64,000 bases of DNA from a virus, in the IMG/VR virus record IMGVR_UViG_3300028840_002431, positions 352,540-416,539 of that record, one strand, 5' to 3'. The first letter of the stretch is position 1; each line of letters opens with the position of its first letter. Below the pieces are notes generated by a model, which was not told the DNA's origin, made no database searches, and saw nothing but the letters and a program-made list of their open reading frames with translations. Below, piece by piece: positions 32,975-64,000 of the stretch. The position numbers were made by a program, and so were the translations under genes.

Positions 32975-33256
32975 CTACCTCTTAGCGTCCATCCCGCCCC
33001 ACCAGTAAGCGAACTCCCAAAGACTGCTCGCAAGATTGGCGAAATGGCCTAAAGGAGGCCCTATGGGTGAACGTCCTTTCTTCGCAGCCCTCTCAGCTTG
33101 CTTGGCCGACGCCATCAATTCTGAAAAAGCCTGATCGAACTCGGCTTCCGCCTCCGGGTCGGCCGCCTTGAATCCGGCCTCGTAAGCCCTTTTCAACGTC
33201 TCTACAATAGGGCGATCCATACCCGCTTGTTTGGTTTTCCATTTGAGTTGGTCCAT
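32975..33256 (-). CDS. Small protein with MDxLKWKT N-terminus
   Basis: 93 aa. The ATG at 33256 overlaps the upstream TGA (TGATG), giving the N-terminus MDQLKWKT. An upstream TTG would add five residues but hide this shared motif. A helical stretch follows (FDQAFSELMASAKQAERAAK) and then an aromatic C-terminus (SSLWEFAYWWGG). Function unknown; part of the MDxL[R/K]WK family. Confidence 0.6.
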   Translation of the reverse strand: MDQLKWKTKQAGMDRPIVETLKRAYEAGFKAADPEAEAEFDQAFSELMASAKQAERAAKKGRSPIGPPLGHFANLASSLWEFAYWWGGMDAKR

Positions 33257-34002
33257 CAGATTTGCGCCCAATCATCAAAGCGGGTGTCCTTGAAACCGCC
33301 CTCAATTGAATTCATGTCTACCTGCATTTCCCACTCTTCACCTTCGTAGTCCTCGATGGTGAACACGATAGACTGTTGCTTCTGGCCTTTACCCCCGTAT
33401 TCGTCCCACTTCACATCTTCCACGTCCACCGGAGTGCCAAAAGTCTCCTCGTAATCCTCGTCGTCTCCTGTGAACTGGTTGGTCATTGTGACTGTGACTT
33501 CGACCCCATCCCCAATCGGGTAAGCATTAACGTCACTGATGTAATAGACGGAACCGGCGTGGCCCCCCTTTGGGACAAACTTGTGTTTCCGTAGCTTGCC
33601 GCTGGGCTTCCCTCTCTCATAATAACTCAACCACTTCTCGACTTCCCGGTTTCCGTACCAGTCGTCGTCTCTGGGAAGACCCTTGCGGGCCGCCGCCCTG
33701 ATATCGTCCTCAAGGAACTTGAACACATCCACGTAGAGTTGGACCCCGGAAGACATAACTACATCCCACACACCCATGGCCGCGTAACGAGGTGTGAACT
33801 CCCGGTCCTTGAGCCATTTCTCCACTAGATTCGCGGCTTTACGAGGGTCGAGTTTCCCAACGCTGTGGAGAAGATCCAAGGGAGAGTCCCCACCCATTGG
33901 GTCTTCCCCCCACCACCCGGCAGTCTTGCGCCGAGTGTAAGCTTTTTCAAAAGCCTTCCTCTCGACGACGTTCCTGTAACCCTCTACTACTTTTTCACGC
34001 AC
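33256..34002 (-). CDS. Unknown protein with N-terminal AFEKAY motif
   Basis: 248 aa, GTG start at 34002-34000 with GAGGAG six bases upstream. The N-terminus contains RKAFEKAYTRRKTAG, a variant of the recurrent 'AFEEAL ... KTA' motif. Residues about 60-125 are helical. The C-terminal about 100 residues are beta-rich and acidic (VEVTVTMTNQFTGDDEDYEE), as in a small beta-sandwich. No family or catalytic motif recognised. It is tightly packed with its neighbours. Confidence 0.6.
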   Translation of the reverse strand: MREKVVEGYRNVVERKAFEKAYTRRKTAGWWGEDPMGGDSPLDLLHSVGKLDPRKAANLVEKWLKDREFTPRYAAMGVWDVVMSSGVQLYVDVFKFLEDDIRAAARKGLPRDDDWYGNREVEKWLSYYERGKPSGKLRKHKFVPKGGHAGSVYYISDVNAYPIGDGVEVTVTMTNQFTGDDEDYEETFGTPVDVEDVKWDEYGGKGQKQQSIVFTIEDYEGEEWEMQVDMNSIEGGFKDTRFDDWAQI

Positions 34003-34005
34003 GGT

Positions 34006-34338
34006 TTACTCCTCGTCTTCCGGAGGTGGTGTCCCCGGTTTGTGGCTCTTGTCGGTCGAGTAATGAGCCGGTCGCCACTTGATCTTATACTGACGAGCCA
34101 ACTTTTTAGCGGTCTTAACGGCCTCCTCGAAAGTCTTGGCCCACACAGTCCGAATCGAATCCCGCTCAATGACCTTGCCACCCCGAGATATCCCGACCTC
34201 TGTGCGCCATCCGTCAGACTCCGCCGCAATCACCTGAACCATCAGGGTGACTTTGTCAGAGCCGCCGACAAAATTATACTTCCACCGTTCCTTGTCAGCG
34301 GCCGTTTTCGTGTTCGTTTTCCAGCGAAGGTCGTCCAT
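34006..34338 (-). CDS. Small protein with MDxLRWKT N-terminus
   Basis: 110 aa, ATG start with CGAGG upstream. N-terminus MDDLRWKT. The body (VTLMVQVIAAESDGWRTEVG, then TFEEAVKTAKKLARQYK) has strands followed by a helix, like a small dsRBD-like or general alpha/beta domain, and the tail is Pro/acidic. It is unknown but belongs by its first eight residues with the genes at 32720, 32975 and 34726. Confidence 0.6.
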   Translation of the reverse strand: MDDLRWKTNTKTAADKERWKYNFVGGSDKVTLMVQVIAAESDGWRTEVGISRGGKVIERDSIRTVWAKTFEEAVKTAKKLARQYKIKWRPAHYSTDKSHKPGTPPPEDEE

Positions 34339-34339
34339 A

Positions 34340-34717
34340 TTACCTCGGAAAGATCTTGGCCCGCATTTGATCGGAGTACTCGCCAGGATCTCCGAACTTC
34401 TTGACGAACTTAGTCTCAGCCTTGGCGAGTTCGTCGAACGTCTTTTTGGAGATGTTCTCCAACTCCTTTACGGCGTCCTCTATCTTCTTGATCATGGCTT
34501 CGGCGTCTTTTCTAGCGGGGCCGTCTATAAAGTGAGCCGCGTCATAGTAGTCCCGCTTTGTCTCTGTGAGGTCGTACTCGATATCATGGAGAGTGTTCCA
34601 TACCTTATCGAGACAACGTCCCACGGGTCCGTCCCTAAGGAGGGCCTTACGGTTGAAAGCTGCGTCGAACGCGCTCTTCTCAAGAGCCTCCTTAAAAGCC
34701 TTCACCTCCTTGGACAT
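34340..34717 (-). CDS. Small helical protein with AFKEAL motif
   Basis: 125 aa, ATG with strong AGGAGG seven bases upstream. The N-terminus reads KAFKEALEKSAFDAAF, a clear member of the recurrent AFEEAL motif set. The rest is helical, with a likely coiled coil (MIKKIEDAVKELENISKKTF). No family recognised. Packed tightly between two MDxLRWK genes. Confidence 0.6.
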   Translation of the reverse strand: MSKEVKAFKEALEKSAFDAAFNRKALLRDGPVGRCLDKVWNTLHDIEYDLTETKRDYYDAAHFIDGPARKDAEAMIKKIEDAVKELENISKKTFDELAKAETKFVKKFGDPGEYSDQMRAKIFPR

Positions 34718-34725
34718 AACACCTC

Positions 34726-35013
34726 CTACCGTCGCCGCTTCTTTACGTTTCTCTCCAGGATCTCGGCGGCTCTCCTGGCGTCCATCAAGGAGCGTGTTGC
34801 CTTGCTTATAGGCTCCAATACCGTGTCGGCCTCAAGCATACTCACCACTCCCTGATACTGGATGTTCGACACCATCTCTTCTAACTTCTTGACTGCCCGT
34901 GCGACCGCCATGAACTCCCGATCAACGGTCTTGAAGTCGGTGTCCTTCCAGCCCGCAGAACGCACGACTCCGTCAGACGCCGCGTTCCTTACCTTCCAAC
35001 GCAAAGCATCCAA
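34726..35013 (-). CDS. Small protein with MDxLRWK N-terminus, TTG start
   Basis: 95 aa. No ATG lies in frame near the start. The TTG at 35013-35011 is supported by GGAGG upstream and by the conserved N-terminus MDALRWKV that it produces, equal to that of three neighbouring genes. The product is helical (VKKLEEMVSNIQYQ) with a basic end (KKRRR). It is the first gene after the sheath in transcription order. Function unknown. Confidence 0.6.
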   Translation of the reverse strand: MDALRWKVRNAASDGVVRSAGWKDTDFKTVDREFMAVARAVKKLEEMVSNIQYQGVVSMLEADTVLEPISKATRSLMDARRAAEILERNVKKRRR

Positions 35014-35029
35014 CGGAGCCTCCGGTGTG

Positions 35030-38000
35030 TTAGATCCGCGCCCTCAGATTGAACGTCAGGAGGATGTACAACAGCGGGAAGATCGGGCTGTAGAACATCT
35101 CAAACCTGAGAATCGTGGGATCGTCCTGGTCGATGGTAGCTGTCATGCCCGTGAAGGCTCCGACAATCTCAGCTTGCACGAGAGAGCGGAACAATCCGGT
35201 CATGGAGACCACGACCTCGTTGGTACGCGAAGCCAGGAACTTCGTGCCGATGAACGAGTCCAGGATAGCCCGGCTCTGTTGCTGGACGAAGTCAGCGATT
35301 TGGATGACTGTCGGAAGCCGTGTGAGCACCGAAGTCATGTTGGTGGTCAGGCCCTGACGAATCCGGATAATCGGGTCCAGATCTTCCAGGAGCGTAACAC
35401 CAGCAACCGCTGTCTGGTTCGCCTCGACAGGATCAAGGATACGCGGAATCCGCGTAAAGCCCTGAACCCGACGACGTGTGTAAGGAGTGGCTACATCGAC
35501 AGCCGGGGAAACGACAGCGCCAGCCACAGCGGCTGCGAAGAAGCTGCCATCGATCAGGCTCTCGAACGACTGCCCCAGTTCATCGGTCAAGGTGATAACC
35601 GATGAATCCGGGTAGTAGGCCACGATACGGCTGGAATTCAGCCCTCTGGCCACACTCTGAGCCGTCGTCGCGGAGGTGCCGGACGCGAATCCGATCATAC
35701 CCATCCGCTCTGCCTGATTCCGAGTGTTGCTCTGAATCTCGCAGTGTGAGGTCAGGTGCGTGTATACCGATGTGTCCGTGGACCCCGGAACGATGATATC
35801 CGGCCGGATGTTGCCCGGAAGCGGGGTCGCCAGTTCATCGATCGCCTCGTTGTACGACTGGGCGCTGGCTTGGTTCGTGTTCGGCTCCTTGAGGACCTGC
35901 TTCATGATGAGCAAGACGGCCCCGTTCAGGATCGACAAGTAACCAGACAGCGTCAGACGGTTCTCAGCCGACGTGCGGCCGAAGTTCGCCTCAATCGTCT
36001 TGAGTTGCTGGTAGATCTTGGGCGAGTAGTCCTGCTTCAAGTAGCGGTAGCTGATGAAGTAGAAGTCCCCAACGGCCGGTTCCACACCATCCGGGTTGTA
36101 CGTCACGAGAGACGCAGTGTCGTTCACGCCCACGCCAACGGTGTTTGTGACCAACAGTTCCAGACCACCGATGGAGTAGCGAGGAATCGACGGACTCACA
36201 TGGAAAGTCGTGGAGATCTCCAACGTGAAATACCCGGCTGGATCATAACTCCCGGTCGCGGACGGCAGAACCGTGAACCGAAGACCCGTACGAGCGTCTG
36301 TGTAGGTCTGGCCCGGATAACCGGTTCCAGCGGAACCCACAGCCGAAGTTGACGTTACGTCGTACTTATCGGACGGGTCCTCACCAACGTCTCCGTCGGT
36401 GCCCGGCGTGATGTTGATGCCTGTCGTCGGATTGAATGCCGAATTCGCGGAGTTCACGAATCCGATGCTCGAAGTAGCCGCACCCACCGTCAACGACTCG
36501 ATACGAATGTAGCTGTCGCCAGAGATTTCCTCGACGTAAGCCACAGCACCGGCCGCGAAACCAGCCGTGTCGTTGAGAATGTCCACGACCTCTTGAGCGC
36601 CAACCTGGGTCTGGGTGGCCGCGTCGTTCTGGGTGTACCCTAGTACATCGTTCGCAGAGCCACCGCCAATCAACAGGGAAGACCCGGTATCGTTGGTCGG
36701 GCTGGTCAGACGAATCTTGTCCAGGTTCACCCCGGTGCCCACCGACGCCAAGGCAGGGACCACGGCGTTGATGTCCGCGATAACTGTCGCGGGAAGAACG
36801 GCCGCACCCGCTGTCAGCGTGACGGTGTACTCCACGCCGTCCACAGTGACGACCAGTGTGTCGTTCAGACCGGTGGTGATGTTGAACGGGCCAGCAAGAG
36901 TGCCGAGATACGTGGCCGCCTTGCAGATGGCTCCGGTGGTCCCGTTGGCTTGCTGGAAGGTCGCGAAACCGAGAGTGGTCTCGGCCGTCCCCTGGTTGAT
37001 CGTGACATTCGCCACGTCGTCCAATCCAGCCGGTAGCGCACCCGGAACCTGACGACCCTCAATGATAAAGAAAACGTCGCCGGTAGCCGGTCCAACCTGC
37101 CGGAAGCTGGCCAGATTGTTCGGGGCTGTGGCAATGAAGTTCGGATCAGCGTCGATGGCCGCGTTGATCTCGCCTACGATGAAGGCCGGAAACTGGTTGC
37201 CAGCGGTCAAGCTGATCGTACCAATCGTGAACCCGTCGATCGTAAGATTCAGATCGTTATTAGGAGCCGGGGAGATGGCAATCTTACCAGCGTCCGGACC
37301 GGTCTGAATCGGAGTCACAGCGTCGCCCACCAGGAAAGCCTGGGCAGCCGCCGCCAGATTCGAGGACTGGTTCACGCCGTTGACCTGAGTGACCCAGGTG
37401 GCGGAGAACGGGGAGTAGAAGCTGTACGGAGCCGCTCCCTTGTTCGTGTAGCTCGCGTTGGAGCCAGGGGTCTGCCCGAAGGTCACTGTAACAACCTCGG
37501 ACACCGCCGTGCCGGAACCTGTGTGGAAGGCGTCCGGAATCAACTCCGAGCCACGCGGCCACTGGACGATCTGACTCAGACCGGACTTGGTTCCAAACCG
37601 GACCTCGTAGAGATTCTGATCGAGAATGGTCGAGAACACCGTGTACTCGCCCGTGCCGACCGGACCGGCAACCTGATTGGTCAGGATGAAGGTGTCATCC
37701 GACAACCGGCTGTAGTAGAAGGTCGCGTAGGCGTTATGGTCGGGCGGGACCGGGTCCTTGAGGACGATTCGCCGGTTCACACCATCCACGACAGTGACGG
37801 TCGCAGCCGGGCGGTTCAACGCATCTTGGAGGTTGATGCCCGTGTAAACCCTCACGAGATCCGGTCGGTTCGTCGTGAGCGCCTGACGGCTGTTAGCCAC
37901 CGAATTGAAGGTTTGAAGGCCCAGCGGAGTGCTACGCCCGTTACCCATGGTCGGAACCTCAGGCAACAGAAAGTCGGTGGACGATACTGTGGCCGGAATC

Positions 38001-39319
38001 GTTGTCGTGTCTGTGACCCGGTCACAGAGAGCCAGATAGTACTGACTGTCGATGAGGGTTCCGACGATTTGTCCGCCAGATCCGGTGTCACCATCGAACG
38101 GGGTCGCGCCCGGAGTGGTCGTTTCCGCCGTTACCTGGAAGCTTGCGCCCCAGTTGATGACGCTCACATCCGTGCTTGGGTTCGAGATAACGAAGTCCGT
38201 ACCCTGGATGTAGTCGTTACGACCCGGCGAGATCCCGCACCGCAGTACGGTGGTCACGAGGCTGTTGGGCAGGTAATCGAAGGTGTCCTGCCATGTGTTG
38301 GCCCAGTAGTCGATTGTGACAGTCGAGCCAGGAGCCGGGGCAAACGGCAGCGTGACGATACCGTTGGTGCCGTCAACCGCTTCGGCCACAACCTGTGTAC
38401 CGTCTACCTTGGCAACAACCTTGGACGGATCGGTTGTTGTGATTCCGCCGCTCGAACCATCCACGATTGGCCGGTTGAAGACCCGGAAATCGGCGTTACG
38501 GTTCGTGCTGTTACCTTCGGAGAAGCCCAAAGGACCGTTGGCGGTCCCGTTCCCAATCTCGATGCTGATTGAACTCGTGAACGAGATGTGGTCCCGGCCC
38601 TGACCGTCCGTGAAGACCGAAGTCGAAAGATTTGGAATCGCGGCAGCGTCAATGACCGATTTCAGGGTGGCGGCGCTGAGCGATCCGGCCGGGAACGTAA
38701 CCGTTGACTCCGTGCCGTTCACGTCGATGACAAAGATGTCGTTAACGCCGGTCGCAATGTCAAACGGAGCGTATCCCGGAGAAATCAGATTCGCGTTCTC
38801 AGTTGTGACCTGATCCGACACATCGTCGGTGAACGCTGTGTCTCCCCGGTGGAAGAAATAAGTGACGCGAACGTCGGCTTCCGGTTGGGTAGGCACCTGA
38901 AGGGTAACGAGGCCCTCTTGACCCCGCACAGACCCTAAAGATACGGGTACGCCGTTAACCGTGACAGTGACCGTTCTTGTGTCATTAGTCACCCGACCAA
39001 ATCCCTGGCCGTCTACAATCGGATAGTTCCTAACACGGAACGTCGTGAACGTACCGTCCTGAGCACCTAAGAGCAGGTTTTGAGGGTTCGTCGCATCAAC
39101 AACCCAGCTTTCTGACACGTCTTCGTTGACGATTTGCTGATCAACGGTTGCCGACGAGCCACGAACAAGCTCAAAATCGTTCTGCTCTAACTCTTCTTGA
39201 CCAACACCGATCAGGGCGGGGATTCTAAGTCCAGCCACCAAGTTCGAGGCATTGGTTTCAGTCAGGGTACGTGTGTAGACACCCGGAGGAGCATATGAAA
39301 TGAAGGGGCCAATCGCCAT
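35030..39319 (-). CDS. Tail sheath protein, very large
   Basis: 1429 aa, two to three times the usual sheath. ATG with AGGAG upstream. The N-terminus (FISYAPPGVYTRTLTE) and residues about 1120-1429 (DIIVPGSTDTSVYTHLTSHC ... GFTRIPRILDPVEANQTAVA ... LYILLTFNLRARI) fit the sheath family. The middle is made of inserted beta domains, including at least three copies of a 'TGxND-x-xxVxVxG' module (about 184-270, 680-780 and 805-890) shared with two other genes. Such inserts probably decorate the outer tail surface. The sheath contracts to drive the tube through the envelope. Confidence 0.85.
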   Translation of the reverse strand: MAIGPFISYAPPGVYTRTLTETNASNLVAGLRIPALIGVGQEELEQNDFELVRGSSATVDQQIVNEDVSESWVVDATNPQNLLLGAQDGTFTTFRVRNYPIVDGQGFGRVTNDTRTVTVTVNGVPVSLGSVRGQEGLVTLQVPTQPEADVRVTYFFHRGDTAFTDDVSDQVTTENANLISPGYAPFDIATGVNDIFVIDVNGTESTVTFPAGSLSAATLKSVIDAAAIPNLSTSVFTDGQGRDHISFTSSISIEIGNGTANGPLGFSEGNSTNRNADFRVFNRPIVDGSSGGITTTDPSKVVAKVDGTQVVAEAVDGTNGIVTLPFAPAPGSTVTIDYWANTWQDTFDYLPNSLVTTVLRCGISPGRNDYIQGTDFVISNPSTDVSVINWGASFQVTAETTTPGATPFDGDTGSGGQIVGTLIDSQYYLALCDRVTDTTTIPATVSSTDFLLPEVPTMGNGRSTPLGLQTFNSVANSRQALTTNRPDLVRVYTGINLQDALNRPAATVTVVDGVNRRIVLKDPVPPDHNAYATFYYSRLSDDTFILTNQVAGPVGTGEYTVFSTILDQNLYEVRFGTKSGLSQIVQWPRGSELIPDAFHTGSGTAVSEVVTVTFGQTPGSNASYTNKGAAPYSFYSPFSATWVTQVNGVNQSSNLAAAAQAFLVGDAVTPIQTGPDAGKIAISPAPNNDLNLTIDGFTIGTISLTAGNQFPAFIVGEINAAIDADPNFIATAPNNLASFRQVGPATGDVFFIIEGRQVPGALPAGLDDVANVTINQGTAETTLGFATFQQANGTTGAICKAATYLGTLAGPFNITTGLNDTLVVTVDGVEYTVTLTAGAAVLPATVIADINAVVPALASVGTGVNLDKIRLTSPTNDTGSSLLIGGGSANDVLGYTQNDAATQTQVGAQEVVDILNDTAGFAAGAVAYVEEISGDSYIRIESLTVGAATSSIGFVNSANSAFNPTTGINITPGTDGDVGEDPSDKYDVTSTSAVGSAGTGYPGQTYTDARTGLRFTVLPSATGSYDPAGYFTLEISTTFHVSPSIPRYSIGGLELLVTNTVGVGVNDTASLVTYNPDGVEPAVGDFYFISYRYLKQDYSPKIYQQLKTIEANFGRTSAENRLTLSGYLSILNGAVLLIMKQVLKEPNTNQASAQSYNEAIDELATPLPGNIRPDIIVPGSTDTSVYTHLTSHCEIQSNTRNQAERMGMIGFASGTSATTAQSVARGLNSSRIVAYYPDSSVITLTDELGQSFESLIDGSFFAAAVAGAVVSPAVDVATPYTRRRVQGFTRIPRILDPVEANQTAVAGVTLLEDLDPIIRIRQGLTTNMTSVLTRLPTVIQIADFVQQQSRAILDSFIGTKFLASRTNEVVVSMTGLFRSLVQAEIVGAFTGMTATIDQDDPTILRFEMFYSPIFPLLYILLTFNLRARI

Positions 39320-39483
39320 CAGAATCTCCTTGAGGTTAGGTTATTTCTATCTGGGTCTGGGTGTCATCTTGGAAGTTTACCGTCGGAGGCGTTGGCTTCA
39401 CGGCGATAACGGTCTGATTCGATCCGGATCTAATCTTAGAGAAGCAACACACAACCTCTCGTACAGGCGGAGAAAATAAAACT
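39320..39483 (-). promoter_or_regulatory. Intergenic region upstream of the sheath gene, possible late promoter
   Basis: 164 bases without a gene. It holds on the minus strand GATCGAATCAGA (39424-39413) and AGATAGAAAT (39352-39343), related to boxes near 25600-25663 and 54157-54503. The AGGAG ribosome-binding site of the sheath is at its end. A strong promoter is expected here because sheath is needed in large amounts, but no clear sigma-70 pair is seen. Confidence 0.3.
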
Positions 39484-39906
39484 TTATCGCTTCTCTTGCT
39501 CGCCGGTTAACTGAGATGCCTCTTTCTCCAGCTTCTTACGAGCCTCCTTTCCCTGATCGCTCATAGGTTCATAATCAACATAACCCTCCCCGGTGTGCCG
39601 GATAAGTGCGCGAGTTTCTCCCTGTTTTCTCGCTTCTTCTTTCACCTTGTCGCGCTCTTTGATGTAATCCCACCGCCTCTTAGCGCTACGCCCCACGGCC
39701 TTATCGGCCGTCGGGTAGTCTTGATCATGGACTCCAGAATTGGCCGCTGACGCGCCCCCTTCAGCGAACGAAAATCCGAATCCGGACATTACGAGCGGAG
39801 CTTGATCCTGACACTCCGGGCACTCGTGCGTCGGGTGGTCCCCCACCTTCAAGCTGCGCTCAAAACGAAGATTACACACTGGACACTCAAATACGTATTT
39901 GGGCAT
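39484..39906 (-). CDS. FmdB-type zinc-ribbon protein
   Basis: 140 aa, ATG start with a weak ribosome-binding site. The N-terminus MPKYVFECPVC ... HECPECQ has two CxxC pairs (C8/C11 and C29/C32), the classical FmdB-like zinc ribbon. The remaining about 100 residues are charged and helical with repeated Lys/Glu. FmdB-like proteins in phages are of unknown role, possibly regulators of transcription or assembly. The gene precedes the sheath in transcription order, so it may regulate late genes. Confidence 0.7.
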   Translation of the reverse strand: MPKYVFECPVCNLRFERSLKVGDHPTHECPECQDQAPLVMSGFGFSFAEGGASAANSGVHDQDYPTADKAVGRSAKRRWDYIKERDKVKEEARKQGETRALIRHTGEGYVDYEPMSDQGKEARKKLEKEASQLTGEQEKR

Positions 39907-39939
39907 TTTTTAATCCGATCTGTTATATATTTTGACAAC

Positions 39940-41133: not shown

Positions 41134-41134
41134 A

Positions 41135-42220
41135 TCACCCGTCTGCGTGCTCTTCCATAGCGAGGACCAAAAGCCCTTCCGCTACGGCTGTCATTGGATC
41201 TCTGGCGGTACGGATCTCGCTGATCTCTATCGGGAACCCGCGCCTCTTGACGGCCTCGAACTCCTCGGTGAAGACCTTCATAAACCCGTTCGCCTTACTC
41301 GTTCCCCCAGACACCACGAATGGGACAGGGTCGGGTAGATCAATAGCTGCCTGAACCTTCTTGAATTGGACCGCGATATTGTCCAAGCAATACTTGATCA
41401 AAGCCCGGATATACAGGGCGATGGCTTCTTCTTCCCGGTTTGTGGGATTTGACAGATCTACACCCTTCTCCTTGATGGCGCACATCCTGGATGCTGTGGA
41501 GCCGATGGCCTTGGCCGCGTGAGCATCGACCCAGTCCCCACATCTCGCCAGGGCGAAGTCCAACCCTTTCACCGTCTGGTAAGACAGGGCTATATTCATC
41601 ATACCGCTGCCGAAAGACGCGGCGAGACCGGAGAAATTCTCGTTCATGCACTGCGAGTAAATAATAGCCATCGCCTCATTCATGGGATGAGGTGTGTACC
41701 CCAACTCCGTGAGGATCTTCCGGAACACCTCCGTGTGGTAGATGATATCCTGGCCGACATCGTCCACAGGCTCAGCCGGAACACTGTAGAAGCAATGCTC
41801 GTTAGGCGAGACCGGCTTGCCGAGCACGTTCTCAATCAACAGGCTCAAAATCTGTTGCGCTTCTAACTCAGCGGACGAAATGATGCCGTGAGACAGCGGG
41901 CGGCGCACCTCCCGCTTGAACAGATTCGCCATGTTGAGAGCCGGGTCCCCTAACACGACAAGGGTGTCTCCTTGCTCGACGTAGTCAACTTGGGACAGGC
42001 GTAAGGTTTTCTTGGTCTCGATGTCCAGATCAATGAACACGTCCCGAATGCGCTTGGTCTCTATTTGATTACCGCCCGTCTGACGAGCCGACACCAAGTT
42101 CATGGTTCCCAAGTCCAGGCCACACCCAGGCGCGGACGCAGTCGCTGGAGCCGGGGCAGCGGGTTTGGCCGGTGGTTGCTGCGGGGGTGGTTGCGGTTGT
42201 TGAGGTTGGTCTTGCGCCAT
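41135..42220 (-). CDS. Actin-like ATPase (MreB/ParM/Ta0583-like fold)
   Basis: 361 aa. A Pro/Gln/Ala-rich N-terminal tail (1-32) precedes the actin-fold core: phosphate-1 GLDLGTMN (34-41, Asp36), NEAMAII (about 181), phosphate-2 ASFGSGMMN (about 201-209) and adenosine-type VVSGGTSKANGF (about 308-319). The phosphate-2 motif lacks the usual Asp (S202 in its place), so ATP hydrolysis may be weak. Known phage actin-like proteins move or segregate phage DNA; here it lies among neck genes. The unusual low-complexity N-terminus may anchor it. Fold call is fairly sure, role is inferred. Confidence 0.75.
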   Translation of the reverse strand: MAQDQPQQPQPPPQQPPAKPAAPAPATASAPGCGLDLGTMNLVSARQTGGNQIETKRIRDVFIDLDIETKKTLRLSQVDYVEQGDTLVVLGDPALNMANLFKREVRRPLSHGIISSAELEAQQILSLLIENVLGKPVSPNEHCFYSVPAEPVDDVGQDIIYHTEVFRKILTELGYTPHPMNEAMAIIYSQCMNENFSGLAASFGSGMMNIALSYQTVKGLDFALARCGDWVDAHAAKAIGSTASRMCAIKEKGVDLSNPTNREEEAIALYIRALIKYCLDNIAVQFKKVQAAIDLPDPVPFVVSGGTSKANGFMKVFTEEFEAVKRRGFPIEISEIRTARDPMTAVAEGLLVLAMEEHADG

Positions 42221-42245
42221 CTGATCTTCTCCAATCTGATCTTAG

Positions 42246-42261
42246 CTCGCCCGAAGGCGAG
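42246..42261 (-). other. GC-rich stem with UUCG tetraloop
   Basis: On the minus strand CTCGCC and GGCGAG pair around a TTCG loop (6-bp stem), directly after the stop of the Dps-like gene and before the actin-like gene. No T-run follows, so it is not a standard terminator. It could stabilise a transcript end or separate the two messages. Confidence 0.4.
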
Positions 42262-42267
42262 AACTGC

Positions 42268-42801
42268 CTATCGACGGTAAGTGTAAGCAACTCGCCCACC
42301 TGCTCGTTGCTGAAGCAGGTATAAGAACTCCTCATGTTTATCAGCTACACCTTGAATCAGGTTATCTAACCCGTTTGTGAGCGTTCCCTTGGCGTCAAGG
42401 CTCTCCCTGGCAGCGTTGAGACACCCAACAACACACTTTTCCGTCGCCAAACTCACGGCCACCATCTCGTCGGCACTCGGCCGATCTTCGGGCGACCACG
42501 CATTGACGAAGACACTCATCACCTCCATCTGAGTAACTGGACACACCAAATCCGGGTGTCCTAAGCCCATGGCCTTCTCAGCCATCTGGTCGATGAAAAG
42601 CTGAGAATCCTCGTACAGACGCTCGAAAAGTATATGGTCCCCGTAATACGAGGGACCAGCCGTCCGCCAATGGTGGCTCTGGTGCATCGCATTGGCCGCC
42701 CTTAGAATCGCTGTAAGCGCTCCCAACTCCGCCATCGGAAGTCCGGCGAAGCTTTGACACGCCTGAGCGAAATAAGGACTGGCCTCATTCGCTACACGCA
42801 T
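42268..42801 (-). CDS. Dps/ferritin-like protein with complete ferroxidase signature
   Basis: 177 aa, ATG start. Residues 25-95 and on resemble the Dps four-helix bundle, with H44 W45, H56, E60, D71 and E75 in the exact spacing H-x11-H-x3-E/D-x10-D-x3-E of Dps ferroxidase centres (HHWRTAGPSYYGDH, then FERLYEDSQLFIDQMAE). Members of the family oxidise iron and protect DNA. A basic C-terminus (RAGGRVAYTYRR) could contact DNA. It lies amid structural genes. It may be a virion or cytoplasmic iron-binding protein. Whether it assembles into cages cannot be seen. Confidence 0.75.
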   Translation of the reverse strand: MRVANEASPYFAQACQSFAGLPMAELGALTAILRAANAMHQSHHWRTAGPSYYGDHILFERLYEDSQLFIDQMAEKAMGLGHPDLVCPVTQMEVMSVFVNAWSPEDRPSADEMVAVSLATEKCVVGCLNAARESLDAKGTLTNGLDNLIQGVADKHEEFLYLLQQRAGGRVAYTYRR

Positions 42802-42807
42802 GATGGC

Positions 42808-43092: not shown

Positions 43093-43165
43093 GAGAATAT
43101 TCCCTTTGTGTTAAAAACCACGGTTTTCAAAACCACTCCACTTGTGCTTCAACAAGAAAACTTTA

Positions 43166-43762: not shown

Positions 43763-44263
43763 TTACCTCGTCCAAGCTTCGCGTATTTTCTTCCGCGCTC
43801 CATCTCTAAATTTCTTCTTGAGAAAGGCCCGTGATTCCTCTTTCGCTTTATCCACAAAACCCGACGGCGGCCTACCGGGATGAACCCACCTTCCGTCAGC
43901 CATCGACTTGGCCGTCGCGCTCCGGAATACCAATTCCCCAGTTTCGGTCACGATGGGTATCGGTTTACGGGCCTTGGTTAACCATTTCATCTGCTCCGAC
44001 TTCTGGCCCTTCACGAGCGGTGCAAATGCCGGGTGAGTCGCCGTGATTTGGAGGCTCGACGGCTTTATCTCAATCTTGATGGACTGGCTTATCGCTCTCT
44101 TGGCCCGATCTGAAAAACCCGTCTGCATCAACTCCCTCTTGACGCGCCGAAGAAGATCCGTCTTCGACCTCTTGAGGATGGTGTTCAGGTCCCCGGTGTT
44201 CGGTAGTTCACCGGGGAGTAAGGGTTTCATGTAAACCCGCGACGCTATGAAGGGCTTAGGCAT
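43763..44263 (-). CDS. Head-tail completion-like basic protein
   Basis: 166 aa, ATG start. Basic protein with the sequence order helix-strand-helix and C-terminal helix (FVDKAKEESRAFLKKKFRDG) reminiscent of HK97-gp10/minor tail-type completion proteins, with VHPGRPPSGFVDKA as the best clue. It is encoded between coiled-coil and neck-type proteins. The match is by pattern and position, not proof. Confidence 0.5.
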   Translation of the reverse strand: MPKPFIASRVYMKPLLPGELPNTGDLNTILKRSKTDLLRRVKRELMQTGFSDRAKRAISQSIKIEIKPSSLQITATHPAFAPLVKGQKSEQMKWLTKARKPIPIVTETGELVFRSATAKSMADGRWVHPGRPPSGFVDKAKEESRAFLKKKFRDGARKKIREAWTR

Positions 44264-45622: not shown

Positions 45623-45668
45623 GTGGCAAACCTCTACACTAGAGCTTTACCACAAGAAAAAGCGCGGC

Positions 45669-46001
45669 CTACGACGGCGGCTCTCCCGGTGGTGGTCCCT
45701 CTAGGACGCTCAACAAACCAGTCTTCGGGTCTATCTCCGCCTGAACATCAGGTGACAAACCTCTGTCCGTGATCACCTTCTCGAACACCCGTGATTTCTG
45801 CACGTTAACCTGATGGGACGCCGACAATATCTGGACCCGGCTTTCTTCAAGCGCCAAGAATTGGAGGGCTAAATCAATACGGGCCTCGTCCAACTCGTTG
45901 AGGCGCTGGATAACCTCCGGAGGAACGGGGTCGTTCAGGGTTAGTTTCTTGGGCTTTTCCGGCTGTTTTCCGGGCTTTTTGCCAGCGTCTTTTTTGGGCA
46001 T
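45669..46001 (-). CDS. Small helical protein with basic N-terminus
   Basis: 110 aa, ATG start. A Lys/Pro-rich disordered N-terminus (1-20) is followed by a long amphipathic helix (VIQRLNELDEARIDLALQFL) and a Pro-rich end. No family recognised. It may dimerise and bind DNA or an acidic partner. Confidence 0.55.
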   Translation of the reverse strand: MPKKDAGKKPGKQPEKPKKLTLNDPVPPEVIQRLNELDEARIDLALQFLALEESRVQILSASHQVNVQKSRVFEKVITDRGLSPDVQAEIDPKTGLLSVLEGPPPGEPPS

Positions 46002-46018
46002 GTGGGTACCTACACCAA

Positions 46019-47482
46019 TCAGGTAACAGCCTTCACGAATTCAGACAGGGCCTTACGGTACTTACCAGGGGCGCTGCGTTTGAGAGCCTTGAAGAACTCG
46101 TGGGGTTTCAGCATGTCTATCGCTCTGTAGCCACCCAAAGCGTCCGCTTTCTCCTGCCAGTCCCGGTCACGGTAGTCTGGAAACGGAATCGTGCCGGTAA
46201 ACAATTTGACGGCCGACCGAAGCTCCAACGGCGCTGGTAATGCTTCGCCGTCCCTTTTTCGTTCCTTAAGTTGATCCCGATGTTCCTTCTGGGCTTGCTT
46301 CCAGTGCCACTCGAACGAATCAATCGAGTCCGCGAGCCTAGTGTAAAACTCGATGTCGTCCAGGGCGTGAAAGTCCAACTGCCTAACTGAGAGGCCCTGG
46401 TCCTTTAGCCGTTGGCGTAACTTGATAACCTCCGGGTCATCCTTTCTGTACGAAGGGTGTCCGGGGTCGTACTGTTGTCGAAACTCTGGGGTCTGAATCT
46501 TACGAGAAGGGAAACCAGGGCGACGACCCCGCATTTCCGGCAGCATCAATGTACTCCGGTCCACAGCATAGGCCATATAACTCTGAGCAAAATGCTGTAG
46601 CTCGTGCCGCAACGACTTGCCAAGACCCTCTAACCCTTCCCATCGGAGGGTGTCGGGGATAATAATCGTCAGAAGCCTCTGAGGATCGTACCAAAAAGCC
46701 TTGACCCCTTTTGTCGCCTTGGTTGTCAGCTTTACCTTTATCCCCTGCCAACCGAGCTTCGTCCTCTCGATGGACTTCTTGAGGTCTTCTAACAACTGCT
46801 TACGCATCTCCGCGACCTCAGGCTTGGCCGACTCGTCTTTTTCTCCCAGGAACTTAACGGTCCCCTTCAACTCTTCTACGTGCTCGTCTATTTGCTTCTG
46901 GAGTTTCTTTTCCAGATCCTTCGTATCGTATCGCCAGCCCTTGAGATTGATGGGAAACTCCCTCACGGCCTCGTCGCCTTTGAGTGTAACGCCGGGCTGA
47001 ATCCTCTTCTTGATACTGGCTATTTCACGTTGAATGTCGGCTATGTCCTGTCTCTTACTCTCGTAGTGACCGTCCACACGACCCTTGTAGTACTCATACC
47101 TATTGTCGGCTCGCTCTTGAAGATCCTTTTGCTTCTCAGGGGTCATCTTCTGAAACAACCGGATGCTGTCACGTTCCCCAGGATGCCCAAAGACCCACGA
47201 AACGTCGTAGAACGCTTTGTAGTTCTTCCACGTCGGGTTGGTCTTGTACTCTTTGGCGACATCCAAAAGCTGTGACAGCCTCTTATCGTAGTCCGTTTTT
47301 TCCTTCCGACCCTTCAACAAGGACTGTGCTTTCTTAAGTTCATGGTCGGAAACGACGGCTACAACCCAGTCGTAAATCTCTTCGTACATGGCGGGCGGCG
47401 CTTCGAATATCCCGGCGACTCGTAAGGCCGCTTCCCTACGACGGTCGTAGCTGTAGAACGTCGTACGATCGTAGGTGTACAT
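46019..47482 (-). CDS. Putative zinc metallopeptidase (HELQH) with helical N-terminal region
   Basis: 487 aa; ATG overlaps the upstream TGA. The zinc-peptidase motif LRHELQHFAQ (H293, E294, H297) is present, and DDIEFYTRLADSI about 100 residues further on offers a third ligand, as in HExxH-type proteases. The first 280 residues are mostly long charged helices with one short beta section before the motif. A REAALRVA stretch near the start resembles the motif of other small genes. It could process virion proteins or act on the host. It does not look like a classical prohead protease. Confidence 0.55.
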   Translation of the reverse strand: MYTYDRTTFYSYDRRREAALRVAGIFEAPPAMYEEIYDWVVAVVSDHELKKAQSLLKGRKEKTDYDKRLSQLLDVAKEYKTNPTWKNYKAFYDVSWVFGHPGERDSIRLFQKMTPEKQKDLQERADNRYEYYKGRVDGHYESKRQDIADIQREIASIKKRIQPGVTLKGDEAVREFPINLKGWRYDTKDLEKKLQKQIDEHVEELKGTVKFLGEKDESAKPEVAEMRKQLLEDLKKSIERTKLGWQGIKVKLTTKATKGVKAFWYDPQRLLTIIIPDTLRWEGLEGLGKSLRHELQHFAQSYMAYAVDRSTLMLPEMRGRRPGFPSRKIQTPEFRQQYDPGHPSYRKDDPEVIKLRQRLKDQGLSVRQLDFHALDDIEFYTRLADSIDSFEWHWKQAQKEHRDQLKERKRDGEALPAPLELRSAVKLFTGTIPFPDYRDRDWQEKADALGGYRAIDMLKPHEFFKALKRSAPGKYRKALSEFVKAVT

Positions 47483-48402
47483 CAGAAACCTACGAATTTT
47501 CTAGGACTTAGAACGCCCCGGCCGACGTACGGACCGAAGGAACTCCGAATACCAATACCGAACCTGGGTTGTTGTAGACCCTTGACGACGTTGACGGTAA
47601 GCTTCGCCTTCTCGATTTGCTTATCGAATTGGTCTGACGCCGCTTGGTACGCAGACTCGTATTTACTCGACTTATCCAGAGCCAACGAGATGCCACCAAT
47701 GTTGTAGTCGAACTCGTCAGCGATCCAGTTGATCCGCAGAGCCTGTAGGGCGTGGACCATGGCTCCCGTCAACAACAGAGTCCGCCATTCCGGTTGTTGT
47801 GCAACCAATTGATCAACGCTGGAAAATGGGGTCCTAGGCGGTTGGGCCGAAATCATGTCCAAAGAACGTAAGAGGTACTCGTGAAGCTCCACGTCTTCCC
47901 AGATGTAACCGAACACCCGGCTGAATTGCTGGACTGTTTCCTCGTGCGTAGGAGGTCTAAAATGATAGTTCCGGTCCGGGTTGTTATCCCGGAGTAAGAT
48001 CCGCAACCGGCCCATCAGGTTCAACTCTTGAACCGTAGCCTCCAACGCCCCGCCCGTAATCAAACTGGCGCTGGCCGAAGACAACCCGGCCTTATCGACC
48101 ACAGAGAACTCCTGGACGACTTGTTGAGGAGGGCCTCCAACGAGTTCTCGGAAGTTCCACCTGATTCTATAATCGCCAAGATTGGCGTCCAAGGGCACAA
48201 CGATGGATGCGTAGTATTCCCCCACAGAAGGGTTAGCCGGTTCGCGTTTGGGCACGCCCACCAGGACTTCTTGGCCCGTTGTGAAATCGTACAGGCCATA
48301 CGAGATCTCGGCCGCGTTGACCGGGGTGTTAGAAGAATTGACCAGAAAGATGTTCAGGTCCGCCCGGCCAAGTTGCTGCCCTCTGTAGAAAGTGACGCCC
48401 AT
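47482..48402 (-). CDS. Neck/connector virion protein
   Basis: 306 aa, ATG start, TGATG coupling to the next gene. Residues 1-110 form an Ig-like beta sandwich (YYASIVVPLDANLGDYRIRW). The remainder is helical, including NPDRNYHFRPP and an Ala/Leu-rich section (LVAQQPEWRTLLLTGAMVHA), and ends with a Gly/Arg-rich tail. This is a common plan of head-completion or connector proteins in large phages, to my recollection. No catalytic motif. Confidence 0.55.
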   Translation of the reverse strand: MGVTFYRGQQLGRADLNIFLVNSSNTPVNAAEISYGLYDFTTGQEVLVGVPKREPANPSVGEYYASIVVPLDANLGDYRIRWNFRELVGGPPQQVVQEFSVVDKAGLSSASASLITGGALEATVQELNLMGRLRILLRDNNPDRNYHFRPPTHEETVQQFSRVFGYIWEDVELHEYLLRSLDMISAQPPRTPFSSVDQLVAQQPEWRTLLLTGAMVHALQALRINWIADEFDYNIGGISLALDKSSKYESAYQAASDQFDKQIEKAKLTVNVVKGLQQPRFGIGIRSSFGPYVGRGVLSPRKFVGF

Positions 48403-48404
48403 AC

Positions 48405-48800
48405 TTACTCATTGTAGTACAACGCCTGGGCAAGCAAGCTCATCAGGCTGTTTATCTGGCTCACCTTGCCTTCAAAGCGCTTGAACTCTCTGTTGAACGC
48501 GCCGTCACGCATCTTTTTGATGTGCTTCAAAACGTCTCTCGCCCACCGTTCCGAGATGCCGCCCAGAGCCTTTTCGATCTTATCGAGCGCCGTCTTGGTG
48601 GCCGGTTTGATCCTGGGGTACTTGCCCACCAAATCCGCAAGGCGTTTCACCTTGGAGTCTTTTAGGTCTGGTTCAGCGTCCACGATAGCATCGAACCAGT
48701 CGTCAGTGGAGGCGTCCCACGCCGCTGTCCGAACAGCCGCCTCAAAAGCTACACGTGGGTCGGCTTGAAGCGCCTTTTCAAATGCTTTACGCGGGTTCAT
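48405..48800 (-). CDS. Small protein with tandem AFEKAL/AFEAAV motifs
   Basis: 131 aa, ATG start overlapping the previous stop (ATGA). Its N-terminus holds two copies of the recurrent motif (NPRKAFEKAL then DPRVAFEAAV) followed by RTAAWDAS. The rest is helical (WARDVLKHIKKMRDGAFNRE). Function unknown. The same motif closes the upstream gene, so motif copies lie back to back across the gene boundary. Confidence 0.6.
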   Translation of the reverse strand: MNPRKAFEKALQADPRVAFEAAVRTAAWDASTDDWFDAIVDAEPDLKDSKVKRLADLVGKYPRIKPATKTALDKIEKALGGISERWARDVLKHIKKMRDGAFNREFKRFEGKVSQINSLMSLLAQALYYNE

Positions 48801-49222
48801 CTCGCGGCCTTTCTGAGGGCTTCTTCAAAATCCATGCGGGCTGTCTTTTTCTTCTTGGGCTTCTCTGGCCCGCGCCATTTGGTGGTACCCTCGATCCTGT
48901 CCTTGAGAGAAGCGCAGAAGGCTCCCGTGTCCGACACTTTGCCTTCCATCTTCTTCATACACTTCTTGACATCACCGCCGATGGACTTCCAGAACTTCTT
49001 GCGGCTTTCGTCCGTCCAGCCTTCCGGCATGGTCTCCCACTTGGCCGCGACCTTGTCCTTGTCCTGGCCAAACAGTTCCGACGCGGCGACCTTCTCCATC
49101 TCTAGCTCGACCATCTTCTCGGCGCACGGAAGACAGATGTCGGCCACCTCTTCCGCTGTCAGATAGAAGTCGGGTTCCTGAGCTTCCAGAGCCTCTTCAA
49201 ACGCTACTCTCGGGTTGCTCAT
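48797..49222 (-). CDS. Possible nested in-frame gene (141 aa) inside the polyprotein-like gene
   Basis: ATG at 49222-49220 has a strong AAGGAGG site five bases upstream, and its product begins MSNPRVAFEEAL, like the true N-termini at 48800 and 52270. It shares stop and frame with the 632-aa gene. It contains an Cys-bearing helical domain (CLPCAEKMVELE). Either internal initiation produces it as a separate protein, or a lost stop codon fused two former genes. Confidence 0.45.
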   Translation of the reverse strand: MSNPRVAFEEALEAQEPDFYLTAEEVADICLPCAEKMVELEMEKVAASELFGQDKDKVAAKWETMPEGWTDESRKKFWKSIGGDVKKCMKKMEGKVSDTGAFCASLKDRIEGTTKWRGPEKPKKKKTARMDFEEALRKAAR

Positions 49223-50695
49223 GGACGCCTCCTTGGCTAGATAGTTGGAGGGGACCGCCTTCTTGACCGCTTTGGCTACGGTCTGCCCCGCACGGCTGCC
49301 GACATCACTGATGTGGACCTTGCCGCCTTTCCAATACGCTATCTTGTCGCCGCCCATCCAATTGCCATCCAGGCGTTCTCCGTCAGTGGAAAGCTTCTTA
49401 CTCTCCATTGACTTATGCTCATAAAAAGCGTCTATCACCTTCTTATCCTTGGGGCCTAAACGCAAATCAGCTTGCTTCTCCGTGGCTGCAACATGCAAAG
49501 CCGCCTCGAATTCAAACACCGGGTCAACAGAAGCCGTCTTGTCCATGTGTGTGATAACTCCCGTCATGAAGGCCAGATGGGTGTAAGCCTCGTACAGAGC
49601 CTCCATCCGCCGTTCGTAAGAATACCCGGCGAGCGGGGATTCCTGGTCCACCTTGTCGTCCCGGAGTTCCTTGAAGGCTTTTTCGGCCCTGTCGTAGGAC
49701 TCCTGGAGAGCCTTGATCTGGTTCTGGTCGCCACGGGACTTGGAACTCTTCCCCTTGTCGATAACACCATCGGCCAGCTTCATACCGGCCTTGGCTTCAT
49801 CTAACAACCGGTCCTTGGCCTTCTCGATATTGGCTATGGCCTTCTTCTTTCCTTCGTCCCGGTCCCCACGGTACTTGTAGTCGCTGGTCCGGCTCCACGC
49901 CTTTAACGCCCGCTCGAATTGTTTGAAGAACTTGTCAGCGTTCTTCTTACTCCGCTCCGCCTTCCGACGGACCTTCATGTCTCCTAACACAGAGGGAGCG
50001 TCAGGTTGTTGCGGATCGGTCAAGTCTTGCCACACAACATTGTACGCACGCCACACATATAGAAGTTTTCGCATGGCGAACCGGTGTGGATCGGCCGCCT
50101 CATCCGTCTTGGCATCCATGTAGGCGCGGGCCGCCTTGTGCTGGGCCTTCTGGACATTGATGTAACCCTTCTTGATGTCCTCCTGGTCCAGCTTACCCGA
50201 CTTCAAGCCGTCTTCGAGCTTCTTCTGTAGGGCCTTGATCTTCGGGTGGTCGTAGGACTCGTTCTTATCGAGGTCCGCCGCTGGCATGTCATCGATGGCC
50301 CTCTTGGCTTCGTTGGGAAGCCCTCGCAACCACTTGGAGGGGAGCTTCATACCGTCAGGCATCTTCTGAGGGTAGTACTTGTGGTTCTTCTCAGTCCGAT
50401 ACGCCTCTGACCTTTGGTGTGCCGGTTCGTCCTTGATCTCGTCGGAGGCAACCCTGGCCTCCAACACCGTCTGGAACTCGACTGCCGCCAGCTTCGAAAT
50501 CATTCTCTTCTTGCTCTGAATGGTGGCTTCCAGACCCTGTTCGATTGTCTTAGCGTTTTCGAGAGTCAGGTTTTCGACGGCCTTACCCGCTTTCAGGTCG
50601 GCCATGTCTTTGCGGAGCTTTTTCAGATCCTGTTCGTCTCTCTTGAGGGCCTCTTGCCACTCCTTCTTGGTCGTCTCGTAGGCAGCCTTCTCCAT
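48797..50695 (-). CDS. Long helical protein with three internal AFEEAL-type motifs (polyprotein-like)
   Basis: 632 aa. The ATG at 50695 follows GGAG by six bases. A TTG at 50707 would add four residues. The first about 390 residues are charged helices and coiled coil (AKTIEQGLEATIQSKKRMIS). Three motif copies follow: DPVFEFEAAL (about 392), NPRVAFEEAL (about 494) and MDFEEALRKAAR (last residues). Each is preceded by a short K-x-A stretch (DKTAS, AKEAS, KKTAR). This looks like a fusion of separate small proteins, perhaps cut by a protease. An internal start at 49222 is possible. Confidence 0.6.
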   Translation of the reverse strand: MEKAAYETTKKEWQEALKRDEQDLKKLRKDMADLKAGKAVENLTLENAKTIEQGLEATIQSKKRMISKLAAVEFQTVLEARVASDEIKDEPAHQRSEAYRTEKNHKYYPQKMPDGMKLPSKWLRGLPNEAKRAIDDMPAADLDKNESYDHPKIKALQKKLEDGLKSGKLDQEDIKKGYINVQKAQHKAARAYMDAKTDEAADPHRFAMRKLLYVWRAYNVVWQDLTDPQQPDAPSVLGDMKVRRKAERSKKNADKFFKQFERALKAWSRTSDYKYRGDRDEGKKKAIANIEKAKDRLLDEAKAGMKLADGVIDKGKSSKSRGDQNQIKALQESYDRAEKAFKELRDDKVDQESPLAGYSYERRMEALYEAYTHLAFMTGVITHMDKTASVDPVFEFEAALHVAATEKQADLRLGPKDKKVIDAFYEHKSMESKKLSTDGERLDGNWMGGDKIAYWKGGKVHISDVGSRAGQTVAKAVKKAVPSNYLAKEASMSNPRVAFEEALEAQEPDFYLTAEEVADICLPCAEKMVELEMEKVAASELFGQDKDKVAAKWETMPEGWTDESRKKFWKSIGGDVKKCMKKMEGKVSDTGAFCASLKDRIEGTTKWRGPEKPKKKKTARMDFEEALRKAAR

Positions 50696-50707
50696 ACTTA
50701 GCTCCAA

Positions 50708-51448
50708 TCAGTTCCACCCTATTTTACAGTACCGTGTCAGGGTGTCTCCCGGCACGGGAGACGAAATGGCGTCCACCACCTGGAAGTAACAAAGCTCCTC
50801 CACTACAGGATCACTATAACTTCTTTGCCAACGCCATCGAACAGCCCACAACCCCGGCTGACCGCACTCTCCCGCCGTCCCTGTCACGTAATAACACCCC
50901 GGCTTAGACTTGACAGGTTGACGATTGGCGGGGCCTATTCGCTTCAAGGCACACCCGGTCTGCATCTGGTACATGGAGTAACAAATCCAGACTGGATCAA
51001 CGCCTCCCGGAACTTGGTACAAAATGTCCCCCATCGTGAACGTGTGGCCCCAACGAAATACCAACGAAACCGTGGGCGTCGCACAAAGAGGCGGCGGGAC
51101 ATGAACCACGTCCAAATAACCAGTGACGACACCGACGCCGACAATCGGTCGCGGCTGCGATAAGGCGACTCGGGCAGAACCTTGGATGAAACCTTTGATC
51201 CCCATCCAGGCCATCACGTCGCCAGCGACGTTACTACCACCGACCGTGGAACCAGCTAGGTCCTTCAAACTACCGTCGATCAGTTCTCCCGAACCGACCA
51301 CGTAGCCAGACACGTTGAACGTGCTGACCGTGTCCCCGGTTACACTCGAAGAGCCTGTGATGGGATCAACGATATCGAGAGTCAGCGAAGGCGACCCGTC
51401 TACTGTCGCCGCACCTGTCGCCGTTCCGTCGATATCATAAAGAGGCAT
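50708..51448 (-). CDS. Repeat/beta virion protein with Cys-rich C-terminal half
   Basis: 246 aa, ATG start. The N-terminal 95 residues are short Gly/Ser/Val beta repeats (GSSSVTGD, GSGELIDGS, GGSNVAGD) like those of the gene 52842-53624. The C-terminal half contains nine Cys and several Trp (GLWAVRWRWQRSYSDPVVEE) and looks like a separate, disulfide- or metal-linked beta domain. It may be a capsid decoration or fibre protein. Unknown family. Confidence 0.55.
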   Translation of the reverse strand: MPLYDIDGTATGAATVDGSPSLTLDIVDPITGSSSVTGDTVSTFNVSGYVVGSGELIDGSLKDLAGSTVGGSNVAGDVMAWMGIKGFIQGSARVALSQPRPIVGVGVVTGYLDVVHVPPPLCATPTVSLVFRWGHTFTMGDILYQVPGGVDPVWICYSMYQMQTGCALKRIGPANRQPVKSKPGCYYVTGTAGECGQPGLWAVRWRWQRSYSDPVVEELCYFQVVDAISSPVPGDTLTRYCKIGWN

Positions 51449-51463
51449 CCCATCTCTAACTTA

Positions 51464-51847
51464 TCAAGTTTCTTGGACGAGAAGCTGACCCGACGGAAAA
51501 CGCACCTGATCCGATACCAGGACCGTCCGTGGAGTGCTCAGGTTCCCGAAGTACAACATGTTGCCGCCAGAGGCTGCGTCCAGGAGCGCAAACGCCACGA
51601 TTGTCCCCCAGGTCGCTGTGGCCACCGGGAAGGTAATGTCCGTGGTGTTAGAAGTCTGACCGTTGACGGGGGCCGCGAATGTTGCAATCTGACGGCCATA
51701 ACCCCCGCCTGAAACTTCTGTGCCACCGCCTCCAACATTAGGGGCGACTGTGTAAAGAGCGACATAAACCGTTGTCGGGGACGTGTAGGGGGTAGCCCGT
51801 AACGCAGCGTTTATGAAGTTGTCGTCAAGATAATATGTCTTAGGCAT
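51464..51847 (-). CDS. Phage beta-jelly virion protein, paralogue of 53714-54115
   Basis: 127 aa, ATG start. Matches the common phage protein pattern 'NALLDAxLRxTxYTSPxxVYVALYT ... GTEVSGGGY.RQ ... FPVATATWGTIV ... GNMLYFGNL'. The same order appears in the gene at 53714. This family is frequently found in phage virion gene clusters and annotated as tail-fibre or decoration protein. Role not proven. Confidence 0.7.
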   Translation of the reverse strand: MPKTYYLDDNFINAALRATPYTSPTTVYVALYTVAPNVGGGGTEVSGGGYGRQIATFAAPVNGQTSNTTDITFPVATATWGTIVAFALLDAASGGNMLYFGNLSTPRTVLVSDQVRFPSGQLLVQET

Positions 51848-51886
51848 GATCCCTCTATTACGAGAACTGATTAAAGCTTCCGGAAC

Positions 51887-52270
51887 CTACATCCAAAACT
51901 TTCTCTCCGTTAGCTCCAGTCCTTTGTCCTTAGCCTTCGTCTTCAACGACACAACTTCCGCTGGCACAAACCTTCCGGACCAGAAATACCCTACCCGCAC
52001 CACGCCCTGGTACTTCGTGGAGTTGACATCAATCTGCCCTGGCCGCGCCTCTACCCCTCGCATCACGGAGTTAGCACCCTCTCGAACAGCGGCTACAGCG
52101 TCGTCTATCCGACGCTTCGAGGTGCTGGGATCGGCTCCAGCCCACGCGATTTGAATATTGGTACAGAAGAAGGCCCCCTCTTTTCCGGCGTACATTATCA
52201 CGTCCGGGTATGTTTCCCCGTGCGTGGCCGCTTCTTTCAGCGCTTCTTCGAATGCCTTACGAGGGTCCAT
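51887..52270 (-). CDS. Small protein with PRKAFEEAL N-terminus
   Basis: 127 aa. The ATG at 52270-52268 (MDPRKAFEEAL) with AGGTCAGG upstream is chosen over a longer frame starting near 52333. The N-terminal motif is the clearest of the recurrent set. The rest is an alpha/beta domain (VIMYAGKEGAFFCTNIQIAW) reminiscent of small substrate-binding folds. Function unknown. Confidence 0.6.
   Translation of the reverse strand: MDPRKAFEEALKEAATHGETYPDVIMYAGKEGAFFCTNIQIAWAGADPSTSKRRIDDAVAAVREGANSVMRGVEARPGQIDVNSTKYQGVVRVGYFWSGRFVPAEVVSLKTKAKDKGLELTERKFWM

Positions 52271-62644: not shown

Positions 62645-64000
<1,356 letters not shown>

Follow-up and report, generated by a model that had tools for sequence, protein, structure and literature searches.

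In phage T4, the internal proteins IPI, IPII and IPIII and the Alt protein carry a short N-terminal capsid targeting sequence (CTS), which is removed by the prohead protease, the internal proteins thereby being loaded for ejection (PMC9026906, PMC3012670). The first 10 residues suffice for packaging, with residues 4 and 7 targeting the protein and residues 8 and 10 governing its processing (PMC9026906). Here, four short N-terminal peptides, designated tags A, B, C and D, are described from a jumbo phage of 416,539 bp (IMG/VR record IMGVR_UViG_3300028840_002431). The stretch analysed, referred to as the window, is the final 64 kb of this record (genome positions 352540–416539). About 46 proteins of the phage carry one of the four tags at the N-terminus. 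Judged from the sequence, these are likely to be removable capsid-targeting propeptides with several interchangeable sequences, ending in a predicted protease site, [KR]xA, with Ala at P1. The tag system looks like a zip code by which proteins are loaded into the head and so delivered to the host cell infected next.

In the jumbo phages phiKZ and SPN3US, the prohead protease likewise removes N-terminal propeptides from head and ejection proteins. Those of the head and inner-body proteins are mostly longer than 100 residues and are cut after AxE or SxE (PMC5694885, PMC10052503), whereas the tags of this phage are short, with 8 to 20 residues to [KR]xA for most of them, and are reused on many unrelated proteins. 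In the wider world of HK97-fold viruses, the herpesvirus maturation protease assemblin recognizes a site of the xxA↓S type and cuts the scaffold after Ala before a small residue; the predicted site of this phage resembles it but has a basic P3. For polyvalent and head-packaged ADP-ribosyltransferases of phages, PMC9503650 gives fusion to head proteins or late gene context as the inferred route to the head, and a term search of that paper found no shared short tag. T4 Alt, also an ADP-ribosyltransferase, is a packaged and ejected core protein. In the open literature, to which the search extended (subscription papers being outside its scope), no description of tags A to D was found.

The phage is contractile-tailed. 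Its sheath is nearest, among named phages, to those of the uncultured phage LR745208 and Tunturiibacter phage Tunturi_5, with the tail sheath of Bacillus phage G as a more distant match. A relative of the capsid protein is encoded on 529 stretches in IMG/VR, and the sheath is present on 16 loci. The genome outside the window was read stretch by stretch and 566 genes were called with our own gene caller, some start positions of which may be wrong.

Four N-terminal tags on unrelated proteins

The first-pass annotation of the window had noted a recurrent motif, here tag A (NPRKAFEEAL), at protein ends in at least six genes. All seven strings it quoted were recovered in frame on the minus strand: MNPRKAFEKAL and DPRVAFEAAV in the gene starting at 48800, MDPRKAFEEAL at 52270, KAFKEALEKSAF at 34717, RKAFEKAY in the GTG-start gene at 34002, and, from within the open reading frame (ORF) 48797–50707, MSNPRVAFEEAL with its M at 49222 and MDFEEALRKAAR, which is C-terminal, with its M at 48835. 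The end in question is the N-terminus, with the two strings internal to this ORF as exceptions. The motif is also wider than the window: further tag-A genes lie at genome positions 82584, 94370, 134322, 134615, 142482, 146412 and 148024, and outside the window it was seen directly past the start codon as, for example, MDPRKAFEQALTAS, MGKPRKAFEEALSKEAA, MSNPRKAFEEAVTREAF, MNPRKAFVNSLLKEAA and MSNPRKAFEQSLRTAT. It is one of four tag classes, together with tag B, MDxLRWKT (MDDLRWKTNTKTAA, MDQLKWKTKQAG), tag C, YSYDRR (MYSYDRRTAS, MKYSYDRRKTAS), and tag D, VVARYxxA (RVVARYKSA, RVVQRYKTAS).

Each tag is 8- to 25-fold over-represented at N-termini when the expectation is taken from the frequency of the motif inside proteins. 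Tag A was found at 10 N-termini against 0.42 expected (Poisson 3e-11) and is therefore not due to chance; for internal positions this bears out the demand of the annotation that the motif not be equally common in unrelated cytoplasmic proteins. The counts were 11 against 1.26 for tag B, 11 against 0.51 for tag C and 15 against 1.01 for tag D. Independent of any motif, 33 gapped four-residue patterns were common to at least 7 of 501 N-termini, compared to 0–1 in 25 draws of internal segments. Two tag-B-like starts were discounted, a uracil-DNA glycosylase (genome 10074) that matches by its natural N-terminus, though it is among the 11 matches, and a PG-binding amidase at genome 128406 (YRWKQKG).

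Behind the tag, the 46 proteins are unrelated, as had been proposed for the motif: BLAST outside the tag returned a single non-self pair, two metallopeptidases at genome 213808 and 398561 (window 46022–47482). Nothing useful emerged when the tagged proteins of the window were scanned against PHROGs and Pfam. Tagged enzymes include topoisomerase IB, an AAA ATPase, SprT-like and other putative metallopeptidases and a DUF5662 protein. The metallopeptidases are true paralogues, as would be expected if the tags were remnants of one duplicated gene family. However, they bear different tags, C in the window copy and D (MNLSHRVVARYTEKRA↓G) at 213808, and no other tagged pair matches beyond the tag, by which common descent is largely refuted and left highly improbable.

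The 45 bases upstream of the tag genes have a pairwise identity of 25–27%, which equals chance, and the tag codons vary synonymously. Because the upstream DNA is unconserved and the codons vary, selection acts on the peptide, and an origin of the tags at the DNA level was rejected. The position of the tags exactly at gene starts would fit a reuse of 5′ gene regions comprising promoter, ribosome site and first codons, whether these were disseminated by recombination or retained because they serve translation. A CTTxTGATAA-like element about 25 bases upstream of some tagged genes points the same way, but no more than suggestively, since these genes had in part been used to define it. Such a nucleic-acid effect is largely refuted by the chance-level upstream identity and the synonymous codons, as well as by the different tags on homologous proteins, and has very little probability left.

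This swapping was observed in several families. The Cys-containing module at 48800–49222 has tag A in this phage, tag C in the orthologues of L113/L251, L247, L248 and L249, and tag D or a D-like start in those of G002/L252, L245 and L250. The AAA ATPase of this phage carries tag B, whereas that of G002 has a D-like start. Homologues of the ferritin-like protein, untagged in this phage, have tag B in L111 and L112 and MKRLFKKA in phage G, and topoisomerase IB has tag D both here and in relatives. Since homologues carry different tags, the tags look equivalent in function, and cargo and tag look separable.

The relatives differ in their tag sets, with tags A, B and D in G001 and tags C and D in both G002 and G003. 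In LR745208 the tag (E) is MTLRSKLIRLAHxNPxLRPxLLPLLKEAAG, present in 11 places, one of them between the capsid protein and the scaffold-like gene. In Bacillus phage G, KRLx[KR] occurs at 17 N-termini against 0.7 expected, the tag being MKRLIKKAS. The tagged proteins of phage G include ferritin-like, ParB-like and deoxyribosyltransferase-like proteins and two with weak likeness to ADP-ribosyltransferases (sub-threshold), which recalls the head-packaged ADP-ribosyltransferases as loaded and injected enzymes.

The [KR]xA site in tags, predicted scaffold and capsid protein

A [KR]xA site directly follows the tag in 8 of 10 cases for tag A, 6 of 11 for tag B and 9 of 11 for tag C, against a background of 0.10, and in all six cases for tag E of LR745208. 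The head module was recognized by PHROGs as encoding the protease, portal, terminase and capsid protein. The head maturation protease (genome 15691–17148; candidate catalytic Ser in TLSMG) matches phrog_18299 (E 2.5e-9) and the gene order is portal, protease, scaffold-like gene, capsid, so that the protease gene lies beside scaffold-like and capsid genes as in T4. The gene between the protease and the capsid protein, with an acidic, Q/E-rich product (genome 14440–15642), is presumed to encode the scaffold. In four phages, the predicted scaffold has 8–10 [KR]xA(small) sites where 1.1–2.4 are expected (8 against 1.3 in this phage); the excess over shuffles of its own composition is significant in all four phages tested (P≤0.0003) and ranks 3rd, 1st, 2nd and 1st in the four proteomes. 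For phage G the excess in the scaffold-like protein is less clear, and the highest value belongs to a protein of 930 aa whose gene lies upstream of that for the portal.

At P2, tag and scaffold sites both favour T, E, K and Q, and at P1′ both favour A, G and S, with P-values of 1e-15 and 5e-11, respectively, relative to 5,839 background [KR]xA sites. The capsid protein contains YIKTAAG close to its N-terminus, with KTAAG exact in 73 of 84 loci. As tags, predicted scaffold and capsid protein share the [KR]xA signal, they behave as expected of one common protease specificity, from which we infer cleavage.

In the related 323,174-bp genome G008, the prohead protease gene (159636–163910) is a single open frame of 1,477 aa, in which two large inserts, in frame and probably inteins, split the protease segments. 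G001 likewise has a long portal gene, of 1,099 aa against 597 in this phage. In the head module of LR745208, two TnpB-like proteins (by eye, RFIYNWGLA) adjoin the terminase gene (408442–413152, L178).

Targeting to the capsid or scaffold, with K-x-A as a protease site, had been suggested in the first-pass annotation for tag A. This reading fits the evidence best, because the tags are N-terminal on unrelated proteins, are swapped on homologues and have [KR]xA sites in common with the predicted scaffold and the start of the capsid protein; the motif is, however, only one of at least four tags. The small set of interchangeable propeptides (A, B, C and D, 8–20 residues) would act as capsid-targeting addresses. 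The tagged proteins would be made late and dock by their tag on the assembling head core, after which the prohead protease of the phage would cut after Ala in [KR]-x-A↓(A/S/G), freeing the mature protein inside the head; the same protease would also fragment the scaffold. The cargo, dozens of small proteins of unknown function together with enzymes, would then be ejected with the DNA.

Several points weigh against this reading. A P1 Ala would be a departure from the prohead proteases known from T4, phiKZ and SPN3US, all of which cleave after Glu (PMC5694885). Tag D is followed by [KR]xA less often, with five cases in this genome under strict counting (a looser count was inflated because its counting window began inside the tag); some copies of tags A and B have no [KR]xA either. 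The scaffold was assigned by position and composition, and K, E and Q abound in the protein. The capsid protein of phage G has ETEEG where others have KTAAG. The AlphaFold model of the protease (pLDDT 41) gave no usable fold, and the proteins called metallopeptidases or ADP-ribosyltransferase-like were so assigned from short motifs or from Pfam matches below threshold.

The missing [KR]xA in some tags would be accommodated if the tags were permanent, uncleaved docking peptides that recruit proteins to the head, neck or tail of the virion, [KR]xA marking the end of a docking helix. Many window tag genes indeed sit amid neck, sheath and tail genes, and AlphaFold models the tag of the Cys module as a separate short helix, at low confidence (model pLDDT 60). 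On the other hand, most tagged genes genome-wide lie outside the tail cluster, four unlike tags converge on [KR]xA, and the predicted scaffold has the same [KR]xA preference without a tag helix. We therefore regard permanent docking as unlikely.

The DNA-related enzymes among the tagged proteins (topoisomerase IB, AAA ATPase) and the compartments known from jumbo phages could also suggest that the tags sort proteins within the infected cell, to a phage nucleus, vesicle or replication site, rather than into virions. Import into the chimallivirus nucleus uses surface residues of folded proteins and no terminal signal (PMC12908238), unlike the terminal tags found here. No tubulin/PhuZ match was obtained in this phage, G001, G002 or LR745208, chimallin not having been searched for. 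Intracellular sorting also fails to explain why scaffold and capsid protein contain [KR]xA, and is considered quite improbable.

Comparison with T4 capsid targeting and gene expression

That no described family explains the motif, as the annotation stated, does not hold in terms of function, since the T4 CTS is a described kind of sequence that does. As far as sequence can test it, the tag system would match T4 capsid targeting by function: a short N-terminal peptide is common to diverse proteins, a targeting part is followed by a predicted P3-x-P1 protease site, and the cargo includes enzymes, which are host take-over enzymes in T4. The site ending the tag also matches that in the phage's own predicted scaffold, a match in sequence only and weaker for tag D. 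The differences from T4 are the tag sequence, none of the tags resembling that of T4 on inspection, the tag number (at least four dissimilar, interchangeable tags in one genome), the protein number (about 46 instead of a handful) and the predicted cleavage, which follows the Ala of [KR]xA rather than Glu.

If the tags are indeed capsid-targeting propeptides, the internal head cargo of these giant phages would be readable from sequence, as a tag plus [KR]xA at the gene start, and dozens of orphan genes in each genome would gain a first clue to their function. Capsid targeting would be extended from T4 to a distant lineage with a new protease specificity, and new peptides would be available for loading proteins into very large capsids. 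The reading is directly testable, because the same logic, with MKRLIKKAS, appears in the cultured Bacillus phage G.

An upstream GGTGTA element was present for one of 26 tagged genes and two of 39 structural-region genes, compared to 48 of the 236 others. As it is rare before both of the former, the tagged genes pattern with the structural ones, which is consistent with late expression. Genome-wide, some 60 genes have GGTGTAA about 19–34 bases ahead of their start, examples being the copies upstream of genome 168965, 194372 and 296506; it is probably a phage promoter of the early or middle type. Another upstream element, AATCTTTAGATTC, was seen in front of about a dozen genes, at a position of about −38.

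Tagged genes and their neighbours in the window

Table 1. Tagged and associated genes of the window (window positions; ↓, predicted cleavage position).
Position	Strand	Product	Tag and site	Match
51890..52270	-	127-aa protein	A, MDPRKAFEEALKEA↓A (tag and site at 52229-52270)	no Pfam/PHROG match
48800..50707	-	632-636 aa ORF (48797-50707) containing Cys module
48800..49222	-	141-aa Cys-containing module, in frame within ORF 48797-50707	A, MSNPRVAFEEAL
48408..48800	-	131-aa protein	doubled A, MNPRKAFEKALQA-DPRVAFEAAVRTA↓A (48723-48800)
46022..47482	-	487-aa putative metallopeptidase (HELQH)	doubled C, MYTYDRTTFYSYDRRREA↓A
42271..42801	-	ferritin-like protein, among structural genes	no tag here	Pfam E 4e-6
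34729..35013	-	95-aa protein, TTG start	B, MDALRWKVRNA↓A
34343..34717	-	125-aa protein	A variant, MSKEVKAFKEALEKSA↓F
34009..34338	-	110-aa protein	B, MDDLRWKTNTKTA↓A
33259..34002	-	248-aa protein, GTG start	A variant, ...VVERKAFEKAYTRRKTA↓G
32978..33256	-	93-aa protein	B, MDQLKWKTKQA↓G
32723..32971	-	83-aa protein	B, MDHLRWKTA↓K

Tags A and B alternate in the cluster at 32.7–35.0 kb. In the large ORF, which has the second highest [KR]xA site excess in the proteome, the module tag begins just past KEA↓S and MDFEEALRKAAR occupies 48800–48835; the module starting with MSNPRVAFEEAL is a stand-alone gene in relatives. It is possible, though doubtful, that each tag class directs its proteins to a docking surface or assembly stage of its own (shell, scaffold, portal, neck), with proteins sorted by class, and that fused multi-tag ORFs such as this one are polyproteins cut into cargo in the head.

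A gene for a UvrD-type helicase that has an additional N-terminal domain (27867–31163) lies between those for tail tube and sheath; a likely homologue of the helicase comes after the sheath gene in most relatives. A 361-aa protein amid the neck and tail genes (41135–42220) is actin/MreB-like by eye (GLDLGTMNLVSAR). Repetitive structural proteins are encoded at 52842–53624, where the repeats are of the MDGDSSVGAGA type, and at 63492–63908, where a reading frame of low complexity lies at the edge of the window.

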